A stretch of DNA of 64,000 nt from Cetobacterium somerae (GTDB lineage: Bacteria; Fusobacteriota; Fusobacteriia; Fusobacteriales; Fusobacteriaceae): positions 808,454-872,453 of the forward strand of contig NZ_CP092519.1 of assembly GCF_022430525.1 (NCBI RefSeq), read 5' to 3'. The stretch's first letter is position 1. Each line of letters begins with the position of its first letter. Below are positions 39,731-60,932 of this stretch, in pieces. A program made the position numbers and the translations under genes. The notes under the pieces were generated by a model. The model was not told the DNA's origin and did no database searches. It saw only the letters and a program-made list of their open reading frames with translations.

Positions 39731-41290
39731 ATGTTTAAAAGTAAGTTAGGTTTAGATTTTAATAAGGTAGATAAAGCTAGAGGACTAGCTAAAGATATAG
39801 CAGTAGATGTGCAAAAATTTGTAGACTCATATACAACTGTTGCAGTTGAAAGAACAATTTGTAGATTGTTAGAGATAGATGGAGTAGATTGTGACGAGGT
39901 ACCATTACCAAACATTGTGGTAGATCATTTAAAAGATAAGGGTGTTTTATCAGAAGGGGTAATGTATTTTATAGGAAACGCTATGCTAGAAACAGGAATG
40001 TCTCCTCAAGAGATAGCTGAAAAAGTAAGTTCTGGAGAGTTGGATCTAACTAAGATTAAACAACATAGTAAAGATGAGGTTCAAAAAGCAGTAGAACCTG
40101 TTGTAAACAAAGTTGTAGAAAGAATCAAATCAAATAGAGAGCAAAGAGATAAGTATTTAACAACTATTGGAGAGGGACCAAAACCTTATCTATATGTAAT
40201 AGTTGCAACAGGAAACATATATGAGGACGTTATACAAGCTCAAGCTGCAGCAAGACAAGGAGCAGATATAATAGCTGTTATTAGAACTACAGGACAAAGT
40301 TTATTAGACTATGTTCCTTATGGAGCCACAACAGAAGGGTTTGGAGGAACTTTTGCGACTCAAGAAAACTTTAGAATTATGAGAAAAGCTTTAGACGAAG
40401 TTGGAGAAGAGGTAGGAAGATATATAAGACTTTGTAACTATTGTTCAGGTCTTTGTATGCCAGAGATTGCAGCTATGGGAGCTTTAGAAAGACTTGATGT
40501 AATGTTAAATGACGCATTATATGGAATTTTGTTTAGAGATATAAATATGCAAAGAACATTAGTTGACCAGTTCTTCTCAAGAGTAATAAATGGATTTGCA
40601 GGAGTTATAATAAATACAGGAGAGGACAACTACTTAACAACAGCTGATGCAGTGGAAAATGCTCATACAGTTTTAGCATCAGATTTAATAAATGAGCAAT
40701 TAGCATTTATGGCAGGTCTTCCTGAAGAGCAGATGGGATTAGGACATGCATTTGAAATGGATCCAGAGTTAGAAAATGGATTCTTACTAGAATTAGCACA
40801 AGCACAAATGACTAGAGAGATCTTCCCTAAGGCACCATTAAAATATATGCCACCTACAAAGTTTATGACAGGAAATATATTTAAAGGGCACATTCAAGAT
40901 GCACTATTTAATCAAGTTGCAATAATGACAGGACAAGGACTTCAACTGTTAGGAATGATGACAGAGGCTATTCATACACCATTTATGTCAGATAGATATT
41001 TATCAATAGAAAATGCAAGATATATATTTAACAATATGAGAGATTTTGGATCTGAAATTGAGTTTAAAGCAGATGGAATAATTCAAAAAAGAGCTCAGCT
41101 TGTTTTAGATGAATCAGTGGAGCTACTTGAGAAAATGGTTGAAGATGGACTATTTAATTCACTAGAAAAGGGAACTTTTGCAGATATAAAAAGAAGTAGA
41201 ACAGGTGGAAAAGGATTAGCTGGAGTTGTAGAAAAGGGTTCTAGCTATATGAATCTGTTTATTCCAAAAATGTTAGGAGGGGTTAAGTAA
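39731..41290 (+). CDS. kamD: Lysine 5,6-aminomutase alpha subunit
   Basis: A 519-residue KamD, the catalytic subunit of the adenosylcobalamin- and PLP-dependent aminomutase that converts beta-lysine to 3,5-diaminohexanoate (and D-lysine to 2,5-diaminohexanoate). It is full length, with family segments such as VATGNIYEDVIQAQAAARQG and PYGATTEGFGGTFATQENFR. AAGGAGG precedes the ATG. Its TAA overlaps the kamE ATG by one base (TAATG), which ensures coupled synthesis of the two subunits. Confidence 0.95.
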   Translation: MFKSKLGLDFNKVDKARGLAKDIAVDVQKFVDSYTTVAVERTICRLLEIDGVDCDEVPLPNIVVDHLKDKGVLSEGVMYFIGNAMLETGMSPQEIAEKVSSGELDLTKIKQHSKDEVQKAVEPVVNKVVERIKSNREQRDKYLTTIGEGPKPYLYVIVATGNIYEDVIQAQAAARQGADIIAVIRTTGQSLLDYVPYGATTEGFGGTFATQENFRIMRKALDEVGEEVGRYIRLCNYCSGLCMPEIAAMGALERLDVMLNDALYGILFRDINMQRTLVDQFFSRVINGFAGVIINTGEDNYLTTADAVENAHTVLASDLINEQLAFMAGLPEEQMGLGHAFEMDPELENGFLLELAQAQMTREIFPKAPLKYMPPTKFMTGNIFKGHIQDALFNQVAIMTGQGLQLLGMMTEAIHTPFMSDRYLSIENARYIFNNMRDFGSEIEFKADGIIQKRAQLVLDESVELLEKMVEDGLFNSLEKGTFADIKRSRTGGKGLAGVVEKGSSYMNLFIPKMLGGVK

Positions 41291-42078
41291 TGAGTGGTGG
41301 ATTATATTCAATGGAAGAAAGAACATTTGATACAACACTAGATTTAAAAGCAGTTAAACCATATGGAGATACAATGAACGATGGAAAAACTCAACTTTCA
41401 TTTACTTTACCAGTTCCAGCAGGAGCAGAGGGAGTTGAAGCAGCTAAACAACTTATGAAGAAAATGGGATTTGAAAATCCACAAGTTTCATACTTTAAAG
41501 AGTTAACAGATGGATTTACATTTTTTAACTGTTATGGAAACTGTACTCATACAGTTGATTATGAGTCTATCTATGTTCCAAAAGTAGAATCAACAACTTG
41601 GTCAATGGAGGAAACTGATAAGTTTGTAAAAGAAAATATTGGAAGAAAAATAGTTGTATTAGGTGCAAGTACAGGAACAGATGCGCATACTGTTGGAATA
41701 GATGCTGTAATGAACATGAAAGGTTATGCAGGACACTATGGATTAGAAAGATATGAAATGATAGAGGCTTTAAATATGGGGAGTCAGGTTTTAAATGAGG
41801 ACTTTATAGCTAAAGCTATTGAAATAGGTGCTGATGTGCTTTTAGTTTCTCAAACAGTTACTCAAAAGGATGTTCATATTAAAAACTTAATTGAGCTTAT
41901 TGAAATGTTAGAGGCAGAGGGATTAAGAGATAAGATGTTGGTAATTTGTGGTGGAGCTAGAATCACTCATGAGTTAGCTAAAGAGTTGGGATATGATGCT
42001 GGATTTGGAACTGGAACATATGCAGATGATGTAGCTTCATACGCTGTTCAAGAGTTAGCAAAAAGACTGAATAAATAA
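41290..42078 (+). CDS. kamE: Lysine 5,6-aminomutase beta subunit
   Basis: A 262-residue KamE with the cobalamin-binding D-A-H-T-V-G motif, whose histidine is residue 133, and the PLP-binding lysine K144 in MNMKGYAGHYG. Both positions agree with the numbering known for the C. sticklandii enzyme. C-terminal CGGARITHELAKELGYDAGFG completes the B12-binding Rossmann domain. Last gene of the lysine operon, ended by a hairpin at 42087. Confidence 0.95.
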   Translation: MSGGLYSMEERTFDTTLDLKAVKPYGDTMNDGKTQLSFTLPVPAGAEGVEAAKQLMKKMGFENPQVSYFKELTDGFTFFNCYGNCTHTVDYESIYVPKVESTTWSMEETDKFVKENIGRKIVVLGASTGTDAHTVGIDAVMNMKGYAGHYGLERYEMIEALNMGSQVLNEDFIAKAIEIGADVLLVSQTVTQKDVHIKNLIELIEMLEAEGLRDKMLVICGGARITHELAKELGYDAGFGTGTYADDVASYAVQELAKRLNK

Positions 42079-42086
42079 AAAGAATT

Positions 42087-42115
42087 GGGTGTACTTATGT
42101 ATACCCTTTTATTTT
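42087..42115 (+). terminator. Terminator of the lysine operon
   Basis: GGGTGTAC (42087-42094) pairs with GTATACCC (42099-42106, one G-U pair), followed by T-rich sequence. Confidence 0.65.
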
Positions 42116-42129
42116 TAAAAAGGAGAGTT

Positions 42130-42924
42130 ATGGAGTTTGTAGTTAATGTTTTTACACATAATGGAAAAGGTGGGAATAAAGCTGGAGTAGTAATGTTAAA
42201 AGAGGATATTTCAAAAGAGGAGTGTCAAAAAAAAGCTAAAGATTTGGGATTTTCAGAGACAGTTTTTGTAAAAAAAATATCTGAAAAAATATTTGAATTA
42301 AAATTTTATACTCCTCAGTGTGAAATAGAGTTTTGTGGTCATGCTTCTTTAGGAGCTTTTTATATTTTGAAAAAAACTGGCATTATTGGAGAGGGGGAGT
42401 ATATAGAAAGGTTGGATTTTAAGGATTTAAAAGTTAGAGTAGAAGAAAGAGAGATATTTTTAGAACAAGATAGTATAAAAATAGAGAAGATATCAGAAAT
42501 AGAGAAAATATTGAACTCCATAGGAGTAAAAAAAGAGGAGTTACATGAAAATTTAGAAATAGTTATTGGATATAGTGGATTAAGAGATATATTGATTCCA
42601 GTTAAAAATAGAAAGGTATTAAATAATTTAAAGATTGTTTTAGAAAAAATAAAGTATATATCAAAAGATTATAATGCAGTGGGATATCACGTATATACTA
42701 TTGAAAACAATAGAGTTTATTGTAGAAATTTTGCACCACTTTATGGAATAGATGAGGAAGCAGCAACTGGAAGTTCAAATGGAGCACTTTTTGGATATTT
42801 AAATACAATTGAAAGATATAAAAGTGATTATTTGGAGTTTTTTCAAGGAGAAAACTATGGAGCTTGTTCTAAAATAACAGGTAGAGTTATTGATGGTAAG
42901 ATATATGTAGGGAGCGAGTTTTAA
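42130..42924 (+). CDS. PhzF-family epimerase/isomerase-like protein
   Basis: A 264-residue PhzF-superfamily protein, the diaminopimelate-epimerase fold used in phenazine synthesis and in several uncharacterised isomerases. CEIEFCGHASLGAFYILKKT (about 62-81, quoted whole) and EEAATGSSNGALFGYL are the family motifs, with the conserved catalytic glutamate near FSETVF. The start is ATG 42130 with AGGAG upstream; the longer in-frame start lies in the kamE terminator. Its substrate is unknown. Its last codons form half of an inverted repeat with the convergent ABC gene. Confidence 0.82.
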   Translation: MEFVVNVFTHNGKGGNKAGVVMLKEDISKEECQKKAKDLGFSETVFVKKISEKIFELKFYTPQCEIEFCGHASLGAFYILKKTGIIGEGEYIERLDFKDLKVRVEEREIFLEQDSIKIEKISEIEKILNSIGVKKEELHENLEIVIGYSGLRDILIPVKNRKVLNNLKIVLEKIKYISKDYNAVGYHVYTIENNRVYCRNFAPLYGIDEEAATGSSNGALFGYLNTIERYKSDYLEFFQGENYGACSKITGRVIDGKIYVGSEF

Positions 42925-42940
42925 GCAAAGCTTAAAACTC
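42916..42940. terminator. Inverted repeat carrying the stop codons of two convergent genes
   Basis: GAGTTTTAAGC (42916-42926) pairs with GCTTAAAACTC (42930-42940) around AAA. The stop codons of the PhzF gene (+) and the ABC ATPase (-) both lie in the stem. T-tracts are weak on both sides, so termination strength is uncertain. Confidence 0.55.
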
Positions 42941-43525
42941 AATTATTCTAGTTGAGATTTTATTAACAAAATCCATTTCATGACTAACAATAACCATAGT
43001 CATATCTTTATTATCTTTTAACTCTTCAATAACTTTTAAAACTTCTGCAGTCATAAAAGGGTCTAAAGCTGAAGTAGGTTCATCAAAAAGTAAAACTTCA
43101 GGGTCTTTTGCTAGAGCACGAGCAATAGCGACTCTTTGTTTTTGTCCACCAGAAAGATATTTGGGATAAGTATTTTCCTTATCAGATAATCCAACTCTTT
43201 CTAGAAGTTTTTTAGCTTTTTCAATGGCAGTAGCTTTTTCAATTTTATCAACTAATATAAGAGGTTCAGTAATATTTTCTAATACTGTTTTATTTGGAAA
43301 AAGGTTAAAATTTTGAAAAACCATACCCATTCTTTTTCGATTGCATATAATTTCACCAGAACCAAACTCTTCAAGGCCAATTAGACATCTCAAAAATGTT
43401 GATTTTCCTTTTCCAGAAGGTCCAATAATTGAGACAATCTCTCCTTTTTTTATTTCTAGAGTTAAATTATTAAAAACATTGTTCTCTCCAAAAGATTTAT
43501 TTAAATTTTTAACTTGAATAGCCAT
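42932..43525 (-). CDS. Amino acid ABC transporter ATP-binding protein (short)
   Basis: A 197-residue ABC ATPase of the polar amino acid (GlnQ/HisP) type, with Walker A GPSGKGKST (about 35-43), Q-loop VFQNFNLFPN, signature LSGGQKQRVAIARAL, Walker B LLFDEPTSALD and H-loop SHEMD. It is about 45 residues shorter than usual: it ends soon after the H-loop, and a segment of roughly 15-20 residues before the Q-loop is missing. All catalytic motifs remain, so it may be functional. The start is ATG 43525, sharing one base with the permease stop (TAATG). Third gene of a predicted histidine transporter. Confidence 0.85.
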   Translation of the reverse strand: MAIQVKNLNKSFGENNVFNNLTLEIKKGEIVSIIGPSGKGKSTFLRCLIGLEEFGSGEIICNRKRMGMVFQNFNLFPNKTVLENITEPLILVDKIEKATAIEKAKKLLERVGLSDKENTYPKYLSGGQKQRVAIARALAKDPEVLLFDEPTSALDPFMTAEVLKVIEELKDNKDMTMVIVSHEMDFVNKISTRIIEF

Positions 43526-44151
43526 TATATAGTCACCTTCTTCTCGATATTTTTTAAAATTAAAATGATAACAGTTGATAATCCTAAGTAGATTCCAGCA
43601 CATATAATAAATGGCGTAATTGTAAACTCTCTTGTAACAATCTCTTTTGAATTTCTTAGTATTTCAGCCATTCCAATAGCAGAAACTAAAGAGGTATCTT
43701 TAATAAGAGCAATAGCTTCATTTGAAAGAGCTGGTAAAGCTGTAATTAAGCTCTGTGGAAGAATTATTTTAAACATAGTTTGCCAATAACTATAACCTAA
43801 AACTTGAGCAGCTTCAAATTGCCCAGAATCAACTCCTAAAATACTTCCTCTAAAAATTTCAGATATATATGCAGCATAATTAATTGTAAAAGTTATAAGT
43901 GCTGCATGAAAAGGTTCTAAAACAACTCCAAAAACAGGTAAACCATAATAAACGAAGAAAAGTTGTAATAAAAGAGGTGTTCCTCTAAATATCCATGTGT
44001 ATATTTGAATTCCAACATTTAATATTTTATTTTTTGAAACTCTTCCAAGAGAAAGTAAAATTCCTAAAGGTAAAGATAAAATCAAAGTAAAGAAGTAAAG
44101 TTTTAAAGTTAGAGTTAATCCTTGTAGTATATAAAATAAATTGTTTTCCAT
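43525..44151 (-). CDS. Amino acid ABC transporter permease
   Basis: A 208-residue membrane permease of the HisMQ/GlnP type with about four to five spans. The signature reads QGLTLTLKLYFFTLILSLPL at the N-terminus, and the coupling-helix region is AAQVLGYSYWQTMFKIILPQ (about 139-158). The RGTPLLLQLFFVYYGLP stretch is diagnostic. It pairs with the ATPase downstream and the binding protein upstream. A single permease gene implies a homodimeric channel. Confidence 0.92.
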   Translation of the reverse strand: MENNLFYILQGLTLTLKLYFFTLILSLPLGILLSLGRVSKNKILNVGIQIYTWIFRGTPLLLQLFFVYYGLPVFGVVLEPFHAALITFTINYAAYISEIFRGSILGVDSGQFEAAQVLGYSYWQTMFKIILPQSLITALPALSNEAIALIKDTSLVSAIGMAEILRNSKEIVTREFTITPFIICAGIYLGLSTVIILILKNIEKKVTI

Positions 44152-44177: not shown

Positions 44178-44939
44178 TTAGTTATTACCAAACCATTTTT
44201 GGTAAATTTTATTAAATGAACCGTCAGCTTTCATATTAGCTAAAGTTTCATCTATTTTATTTTTTAGTGATAAATCTTGCTTTCTCATACCAATTCCCAT
44301 TTGTTGTTTATCTAAAATTTCATTTAAAACAACAAAGTCACCTTTTTTAGCAACATAGTATTTACCGACAACAGCATCAATAACAACAGCATCAGTTCTA
44401 CCTGCTTCTAAATCTAAAAGAGCTTCAACATTTGTAGAGTATTTATTAACTTTACCAGTTGTTTTAGATAAAGGCGAATTTTCAAAGGCAAAGTATGAAG
44501 CACTACCTAATTGGACACCAATATTTTTCCCTTTTAAATCTTCAAAAGATTTTATATTAGGATTTCTAACAATAACAATTTGATCATCATCAAAATAAGG
44601 TGTAGAAAAAGCTATTTGCTGCTCTCTTTGAGGAGTTATAGTAAGACCATTCCAAATTAAATCAATCTTTTTACTTCTTAAATCAAATATTATTCCATCC
44701 CATTCGCATGGTTTAAAGATAGCTTTAACTCCCATTCTATTAGCAACTTCATTAGCTAAATCAATATCAAAGCCAATGATATTTCCTTTTTCATCTCTAA
44801 ATCCCATAGGAGCAAAAGTATCGTCAAGACCAATAACCATCTCTCCTTTTTCTTGAAGATTTTTTAAAGCATTATCCTTAGCAAAAGATATTGAAAATAT
44901 AGTGAAAGTCAATAATAAAAGTTTAAATATTTTTTTCAT
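44178..44939 (-). CDS. Amino acid ABC transporter substrate-binding protein (histidine predicted)
   Basis: A 253-residue family 3 solute-binding protein with a signal peptide (about 1-20). Seen are GLDDTFAPMGFRDEKGNIIG and FDIDLANEVANRMGV (about 37-70), the signature of the family, and LIWNGLTITPQREQQIAFS. It lacks a lipobox cysteine, consistent with a free periplasmic protein. Ligand choice cannot be read from the fold, but the leader upstream carries four consecutive histidine codons, which makes histidine the leading candidate. Confidence 0.88.
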   Translation of the reverse strand: MKKIFKLLLLTFTIFSISFAKDNALKNLQEKGEMVIGLDDTFAPMGFRDEKGNIIGFDIDLANEVANRMGVKAIFKPCEWDGIIFDLRSKKIDLIWNGLTITPQREQQIAFSTPYFDDDQIVIVRNPNIKSFEDLKGKNIGVQLGSASYFAFENSPLSKTTGKVNKYSTNVEALLDLEAGRTDAVVIDAVVGKYYVAKKGDFVVLNEILDKQQMGIGMRKQDLSLKNKIDETLANMKADGSFNKIYQKWFGNN

Positions 44940-44968
44940 AAAATTCCTCCTTAATAGATTATTAAAAA

Positions 44969-45001
44969 CAAAAAAGCCACCTAGAACGTATCTAGATGGC
45001 T
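44969..45001 (-). terminator. Attenuator terminator in the transporter leader
   Basis: In the minus-strand RNA, AGCCAUCUAGA pairs with UCUAGGUGGCU around UACGU, followed by six U residues. It lies between the leader peptide and the binding-protein gene, where a regulatory terminator would sit. Confidence 0.8.
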
Positions 45002-45036
45002 TTAAAAGAAGAGATATTTTTCTTTTTCGTTGTCAT

Positions 45037-45084
45037 CATAGATACAGACTCAAGTTTGCAATACAACAAGAGTCTGTATCTATG
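45037..45084 (-). promoter_or_regulatory. Leader hairpin (candidate antiterminator or pause structure)
   Basis: The two arms, catagatacagactc at 45037-45051 and its exact complement at 45070-45084, form a perfect 15-bp stem with an 18-nt loop. The downstream arm can alternatively pair 12 bp with the His-codon stretch of the leader peptide and about 7 bp (GUAUCUA/UAGAUAC) with the terminator, so mutually exclusive structures are possible. Confidence 0.7.
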
Positions 45085-45105
45085 AAAAATTCACAGGAAC
45101 AAACT

Positions 45106-45159
45106 CTAATATCTATGATGATGATGTAATGAGTTTAAAACAACGAACAATTGCGACAT
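45106..45159 (-). CDS. Histidine leader peptide, 17 aa
   Basis: The frame encodes MSQLFVVLNSLHHHHRY and then TAG. AGGAGGA (45163-45170) sits 5 nt upstream of the ATG, and a TTGACA promoter lies about 30 nt further up. Four consecutive His codons in a 17-codon frame, followed by a long hairpin and a terminator in front of an amino acid transporter, is the arrangement of classical ribosome-mediated attenuation (as in hisL). Histidine starvation would stall the ribosome on these codons. The peptide itself probably has no function. Confidence 0.8.
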   Translation of the reverse strand: MSQLFVVLNSLHHHHRY

Positions 45160-45196
45160 ATCTTCCTCCTAAATTTTTTTTGTTTTATGTTTTATA

Positions 45197-45225
45197 ATAA
45201 TACTGCTAAATTTTTAATATGTCAA
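45197..45225 (-). promoter_or_regulatory. Promoter of the histidine leader and transporter operon
   Basis: On the minus strand, TTGACA (45220-45225), a 17-bp spacer and TATTAT (45197-45202). Confidence 0.75.
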
Positions 45226-60359: not shown

Positions 60360-60381
60360 TGTTTTGAATTCCTCCGATTTT

Positions 60382-60448
60382 TTTAGTAGTAGGCAATTTA
60401 CGGCTGCCTGTAGAAACATTTGATCCCTATTATCAACTTTATACTAAA
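60382..60448 (-). promoter_or_regulatory. Guanine-class purine riboswitch
   Basis: The 67-nt RNA on the minus strand folds as the purine aptamer. P1 is UUUAGUA (60442-60448) with UACUAAA (60382-60388). P2 has a 7-nt loop ending GGG. J2/3 is GUUUCUAC (60410-60417). P3 carries loop CCGUAAA (60397-60403). The specificity base opposite the ligand is C (60389), which predicts guanine or hypoxanthine rather than adenine. The ribosome site begins 6 nt after P1 and no terminator intervenes, so control of translation is likely. Confidence 0.88.
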
Positions 60449-60452
60449 CAAT

Positions 60453-60932
60453 CTATTTCCAGAAAGTTCTATGTATCTTAACTATCTCCTCTTGTAAATC
60501 AACATCATTAATTGGACCGATAACTTCGATATTTTTTTGTCCTTTAGCTAAAACTTCTCTACATGGAACGTCAAAGGTAGGATTTTTCTCATGGCTACCA
60601 GTAAGCTCAAGAAGTTGTTTTTCTGTTATTCCAAATACGACTCTTCCAACATTTCCCCAATAGATAGCTCCAGTACACATACAACAAGGTTCAGCAGTTG
60701 TGTAAAGAGTACAATCCCGTAAAAACTCCTTAGAATAAAGTTTAGTAGCTTTTCTCATAACTGTTGTTTCAGCATGACCTGTACAATCTTTTTCAGTAAT
60801 TTCGATATTACCAGATTCTACGATAATATCTCCTTTAGAATCTACTAGAAGTGCTCCAAATGGATTATTTCCACTAGCAACTGCTTCATCTGCAATTTCA
60901 ATACATCTTCGTAAGTAAAGTTTGTGATCCAT
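60453..60932 (-). CDS. Nucleobase deaminase (guanine deaminase-like, CDA fold)
   Basis: A 159-residue zinc deaminase of the cytidine deaminase superfamily. H53 and E55 in TGHAETTVM and the cysteines in EPCCMC (C83, C86) bind zinc and activate water. The length and NNPFGALLVDSKGDIIVE resemble B. subtilis GuaD more than the tRNA deaminase TadA. With a purine permease downstream, guanine to xanthine is the likely reaction, though a related purine or pyrimidine is possible. I start at ATG 60932 with AGGAGGA upstream. Its stop lies 4 nt before the guanine riboswitch. Confidence 0.78.
   Translation of the reverse strand: MDHKLYLRRCIEIADEAVASGNNPFGALLVDSKGDIIVESGNIEITEKDCTGHAETTVMRKATKLYSKEFLRDCTLYTTAEPCCMCTGAIYWGNVGRVVFGITEKQLLELTGSHEKNPTFDVPCREVLAKGQKNIEVIGPINDVDLQEEIVKIHRTFWK

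Follow-up and report, generated by a model that had tools for sequence, protein, structure and literature searches.

The amino-acid ABC transporter operon of Cetobacterium somerae on the minus strand of the window (the whole 64,000-nucleotide stretch of DNA analysed here) is preceded by what is very probably a ribosome-mediated transcription attenuator, which senses how much charged His-tRNA is available and controls a transporter that probably takes up histidine. This histidine leader is one member of an attenuator family with about ten specificities. Ribosome-mediated attenuation is well supported by sequence comparison, namely by the conservation of the leader, by alternative pairings that recur across relatives and by the matching of leader codons to downstream genes; we infer how events follow one another, which positions the ribosome covers, how the leader responds to histidine and that the transporter carries histidine.

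In the 5' to 3' direction the locus consists of promoter, Shine-Dalgarno sequence (SD), leader ORF, the segments D, B and C, a terminator with its U-run, and the genes for substrate-binding protein, permease and ATPase, with the terminator placed between the leader ORF and the first transporter gene. The substrate-binding protein is 94% identical to its closest named relative, from Cetobacterium. The features are as follows, with segment A forming part of the leader ORF:

45191..45225, minus strand: promoter, read from the sequence, with -35 TTGACA at 45225-45220, a 17-bp spacer and -10 TATTAT at 45202-45197
45164..45170, minus strand: Shine-Dalgarno sequence AGGAGGA of the leader ORF
45106..45159, minus strand: leader ORF of 17 codons, MSQLFVVLNSLHHHHRY followed by the stop, with ATG at 45159 and TAG at 45108-45106
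45126-45115, minus strand: four tandem CAU His codons (HHHH) of the leader ORF
45110..45121, minus strand: segment A, the final His codons and AGAUA, pairing over 12 bp with C (45044-45033), from RNAalifold, pair counts and the swap test
45099..45106, minus strand: segment D, GAGUUUGU, at and directly after the stop codon, pairing over 8 bp with B (45077-45070)
45096-45090 with 45086-45080, minus strand: inner stem of D and B, 7 bp
45070..45086, minus strand: segment B, UUCAUAGAUACAGACUC, with D or C as partner
45033..45051, minus strand: segment C, GAGUCUGUAUCUAUGAUGA, with A, B or T1 as partner
45085-45070 (B) with 45051-45036 (C), minus strand: B:C hairpin, 16 bp, perfect
44976..45000, minus strand: intrinsic terminator hairpin, T1 at 45000-44988 and T2 at 44985-44976
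C with T1, minus strand: alternative pairing of 11 bp (7 bp, then 4 bp past one bulged U)
44964..44975, minus strand: U-rich tract of the terminator
44178..44939, minus strand: substrate-binding protein of the SBP_bac_3 family, of an amino-acid ABC transporter (predicted histidine), preceded by an SD
43525..44151, minus strand: ABC permease (HEQRo_perm_3TM)
42932..43603, minus strand: ABC ATPase

An earlier note on this DNA had described a promoter, AGGAGGA, a 17-codon frame with HHHH, a hairpin, a terminator and a binding-protein gene, all of which are present on the minus strand. Its 15-bp hairpin is perfect, as claimed, but measures 16 bp. The downstream arm of this hairpin, C, does pair over 12 bp with the His and Arg codons (45121-45110), and the pairing of about 7 bp that it was said to form with the terminator exists but extends by 4 bp past the bulged U. 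An Rfam scan at gathering scores matched no family at the leader locus, and no further convincing member of the scaffold was found within the 64-kb window.

The same leader, which the note had proposed looking for in related genomes, was found by blastn in about 35 of 61 genomes of the family, across many genera and with its His codons conserved. All 30 loci read contain a short ORF with an SD and a His-rich end directly before the stop codon. In nearly all of them this end is HHHH or HHHHH followed by Arg, the exceptions being one species with HYH and one with HQHHH, and it is kept while the N-terminal leader residues diverge. Most of the window's genus carries one extra codon after the Arg codon and yet retains the AGAUA bases, so that base pairing explains AGAUA better than the peptide sequence does. 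Judged by the conservation of the HHHH(H)R leader in many genera, the leader ORF and its hairpins are far beyond chance.

To cover the phylum, 98 Fusobacteriota genomes were searched with R1, a covariance model for the His leader. It matched in 61 of them and also picked up second and third copies with other codons; a second model of the D-to-C core (R2), built from Fusobacteriota alone, matched in 63 of the 98. Simple sequence patterns recovered too few members, and the collection scan used a protein query instead. The weak R1 matches L186, L190, L191 and L192 were excluded, as they show no plausible leader. With downstream proteins identified by curated HMMs, His leaders stand before SBP3 amino-acid ABC transporters and HisZ, Pro leaders before PutP, Thr leaders (TTTT) before ThrS, Tyr leaders (YYYYY) before TyrS, Trp leaders before TrpS, TrpX and neurotransmitter-type symporters, a Phe/Tyr/Trp leader (WYFYYYF) before DAHP synthase, Met leaders before MetN and MetY, Asn leaders (up to nine Asn in a row) before AsnA, Thr/Ile leaders before Asd and, in a single case, a Cys leader (CMC) before a sulfite/nitrite-reductase-type protein. 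The window's own genome holds a second member, a Pro leader before putP (G000:C1:520886). The regulatory codons form runs of 4-6 and lie in an ORF with an SD.

If a match requires two or more cognate codons among the final 14, the codon run fits the downstream gene in 54 of the 56 representatives with an assigned gene, compared with a mean of 31% and a maximum of 54% for permuted labels; cognate residues were set for each gene family from its known function, except that those of the symporters came partly from the leader and are therefore weaker. Since the specificity of the SBP3 transporters is itself assumed, the fairer test uses the non-His representatives only, of which 97% match (permuted 34%, maximum 64%). 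The presence of the same His scaffold before hisZ, together with the codon-gene matches and the conserved His run, strongly supports two predictions made from the window alone: that the leader attenuates through the ribosome in response to histidine, and that the transporter's likely substrate is histidine. More generally, leader codons would predict substrates for transporters that sequence alone does not resolve.

Several observations accompany these loci. In one genus (L072, L073, L101, L107, L112, L113) a second short conserved ORF of about 17 codons, M-x-KVPR...GLSK-like, lies between the terminator of the Pro attenuator and putP, and might act as an additional leader or serve to couple translation. 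The Cys-codon leaders L161 (MCSHRC, before an amino-acid permease) and L187 (MCMCSRRV, before a sulfite/nitrite-reductase-type gene), each a single case, suggest Cys or Cys/His classes. One genome has a cobalamin riboswitch (L063:2654-2822) close to its Pro-leader putP locus, and close to the Thr/Ile-leader locus L172 there is a glycine-riboswitch match (L172:755-903) that scores below its cut-off.

The alternative pairings were assessed comparatively. Given no structure, RNAalifold folded 24 His leaders into A:C (12 bp), D:B (7 bp) and T1:T2 and did not return B:C; for a diverse set of 43 members D:B was its sole helix. Across the superfamily D:B is better conserved than any other helix, with 97.7% of cells paired (26-56% for slid versions) and 40 double-change cells against 13.1±4.9 in shuffles (0/500). 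Within the His class, A:C is paired in 96.9% of cells, compared with 20-51% for slid versions. In a swap test, which sets each segment against its own and other members' partners, 59 non-redundant Fusobacteriota members gave z-scores of -7.4 for D:B, -10.8 for A:C and -10.8 for C:T1 (each 0/5000), and 46 stricter representatives gave -6.2, -9.4 and -9.3, respectively. The negative controls D:T2, A:T2 and D:T1 were flat; reversed-sequence controls gave little signal for D and T1 and a weak positive one for A (z -3.4), so that composition supplies part of the A:C signal. The best A pairing and the best T1 pairing share one stretch of C in 42 of the 59 members, which makes A:C and C:T1 mutually exclusive, and C:T1 is a conserved, mutually exclusive antiterminator pairing. 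The swap tests thus bear out the alternative folds proposed in the earlier note, and its remark that the pairing order departs from the textbook holds because of the extra segment D. D was absent from that note, which is corrected by this segment, by the five-segment scheme and by the scale of the family; a two-hairpin reading on its coordinates was abandoned once D had been recognised. Most members conserve a few U-rich bases (UUUUGU or GUUGU) in the loop between B and C; these have no partner in the model and could be a pause or tertiary element.

In the switch that we propose, C would be the antiterminator strand: when free, it would seize T1 and block the terminator, and A (the His codons) and B would each be able to withhold it. 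With His-tRNA in short supply, the ribosome would stall on the first His codons, covering A and leaving D free; D would then hold B, C would be released to T1 and transcription would go on. With histidine plentiful, the ribosome would reach the stop codon and cover D, upon which B would capture C, or alternatively A would capture it after ribosome release; with C withheld, T1:T2 would form and transcription would end. If there is no translation, A:C and D:B would form together and so would the terminator. C would accordingly be free solely while the codons are occupied by a ribosome, and not earlier or later. The start of D coincides with the stop codon or falls only a few bases away in most members (median +3), where D would lie beneath a terminating ribosome but clear of a ribosome halted at the first His codons. 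Through this additional segment the leader would act as a comparator of ribosome position, unlike the textbook four-segment scheme.

The folding check that the note had suggested, with and without a ribosome on the His codons, revealed a shift across members but none for the window's member. Folding at the decision point had T1 held by upstream RNA at 0.41 with the codons masked versus 0.10 without a ribosome (p=4e-9), while equilibrium folding across members, with D positioned with care, did not separate a ribosome on the codons from one on the stop (T1 held 0.41 versus 0.35, p=0.36). In the window's own leader B:C is the most stable hairpin, equilibrium folding has T1 free whichever state is modelled (0.01/0.03/0.00), and whole-leader minimum-free-energy folds with ribosome masks gave B:C and the terminator every time, without discriminating the states; the five-segment switch, which we infer, is thus not displayed by equilibrium folding of this member. 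In classical attenuators it is kinetics that decide the fold. On the proposed scheme, the difference between stalled and stop states would have to come from kinetics as well. The barrier of strand exchange from D:B to B:C, estimated for one member (L001) at roughly 6 kcal/mol with saddle values taken as dcal/mol, is modest, and on such modelling kinetic trapping of D:B would be possible.

Among known systems, the His_leader of Proteobacteria (RF00514) likewise combines tandem His codons in a short ORF with alternative hairpins and a terminator before the gene. Its covariance model found no match at the locus, and it differs from the present leader, whose target is a transporter and whose chain D:B / B:C / C:T1 plus A:C goes one layer beyond 1:2, 2:3, 3:4. 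The earlier claim of such attenuation outside the Proteobacteria is correct but not without precedent, as His-codon attenuators were described in bacilli (PMC2965389) and His leader peptides in three Firmicutes lineages, the B. cereus group, Peptostreptococcaceae and Erysipelotrichales (PMC9413887). Some of these stand before hisZ or his operons, and they are described for his and hisS-type genes; the comparison is by description rather than by RNA segments in detail. The T-box (RF00230) resembles the present scaffold in that a single RNA is reused for many amino acids before synthetase, biosynthesis and transport genes, but its sensor is a tRNA bound to a specifier codon, whereas here it would be the ribosome translating a codon run. 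A survey found no T-box in its two Fusobacteria/Thermotogae genomes (PMC2494555). Among our 98 Fusobacteriota genomes, two carry T-boxes over the Rfam cut-off (G023:C53:5272-5519 and G033:C2:400391-400662), so that T-boxes and the scaffold coexist in the phylum; Fusobacteriota, with few T-boxes, would have in this scaffold a general amino-acid control system with about ten specificities. Our literature search, with subscription papers outside its scope, found no account of this system in Fusobacteria; an older survey (Lopatovskaya 2010) may hold related cases.

The closest relative in Rfam is the trpB motif (RF04312, SRC-39-1), an orphan riboswitch candidate known from Firmicutes and Fusobacteria, of which more than 900 examples are on record. 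In the accessible part of its publication it is called a 'strong riboswitch candidate' and described as two hairpins, with the right shoulder of P1 supplying the antiterminator (PMC11109978). In a permissive Rfam scan and the phylum search, RF04312 matches the B:C hairpin and terminator of Fusobacteriota loci below its cut-off of 59 bits, with 46.2 bits in the window and 52.4 at best in the phylum; 38 of the 98 genomes have matches at E<=0.001 and none over the cut-off. On the partial description, P1 corresponds to B:C, the terminator P2 to T1:T2 and the right-arm antiterminator to C (C:T1), and the motif, too, often stands upstream of amino-acid transporters; unlike the motif as described there (PMC11109978), the present loci have a leader ORF and the segments D and A. 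A search of 248 Lactobacillales genomes found RF04312 matches in 137, over the cut-off in 47. Just upstream of the motif, each of the best 30 loci (L267-L296) has a leader ORF in which one or more Trp codons occur close to the end, mostly as ...W-Q-S/N-W-R/H-R, where the window's leader has His codons, and the genes downstream of the best loci are mostly TrpX or TrpB; a further locus, L266, has Tyr/Phe codons before AroE. Visual inspection of the Lactobacillales alignment shows D (AGUUGUAUGUAUGA) to be complementary to B (UCAUAGAUACAACU); RNAalifold chose B:C there. R2, the core model built from Fusobacteriota, detects the Lactobacillales loci, with a best E-value of 3.5e-5 over 98 kb. These similarities suggest a common origin of the two scaffolds, with convergence or transfer as alternatives. 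We consider it likely that the scaffold common to Fusobacteriota and Lactobacillales is a general amino-acid attenuator, which a new codon run (with a matching C end) would turn to another amino acid, which would fill the role of the T-box of Firmicutes and of which, as a ribosome-read switch, the 'trpB motif' would be the 3' half and not a riboswitch. This offers a testable answer for the orphan candidate.

That the leader might instead be a metabolite-binding riboswitch, as proposed for the overlapping two-hairpin trpB motif, is highly improbable given that a codon-matched leader ORF with an SD lies upstream of the motif and that it is codon identity, rather than an aptamer, that tracks the gene; in the accessible text the authors of the motif themselves do not exclude a classic attenuator (PMC11109978). 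Even less credence is due to a T-box or a protein-binding antiterminator. T-boxes do the same job in Firmicutes and a few occur in the phylum, but the T-box model has no match at the locus or elsewhere in the window's genome, and the regulatory codons form a run rather than a single specifier. Least probable of all is a fortuitous His-rich ORF with ordinary hairpins: AT-rich intergenic DNA commonly has short ORFs and hairpins, but conservation and covariation in dozens of genomes contradict chance.

A two-state attenuator deserves more attention, although we regard it as an unlikely reading. Here A and T1 would be rivals for C, which a ribosome occupying the codons would free, and B:C and D would be aids to folding or pausing and no parts of the switch. 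In equilibrium folds T1 is indeed clearly shifted by masking A and by nothing else, and A and T1 target one stretch of C in 42 of 59 representatives. Against it stand the status of D:B as the best conserved helix of the superfamily and the location of D where a terminating ribosome would cover it, neither of which a mere aid would need.

Elsewhere in the window, a purine riboswitch (RF00167) scores above the gathering score at 60367-60466 on the minus strand. Convergent with the transporter operon, genes for the alpha and beta subunits of lysine 5,6-aminomutase and then a PhzF-family gene lie at 39731-42924 on the plus strand.
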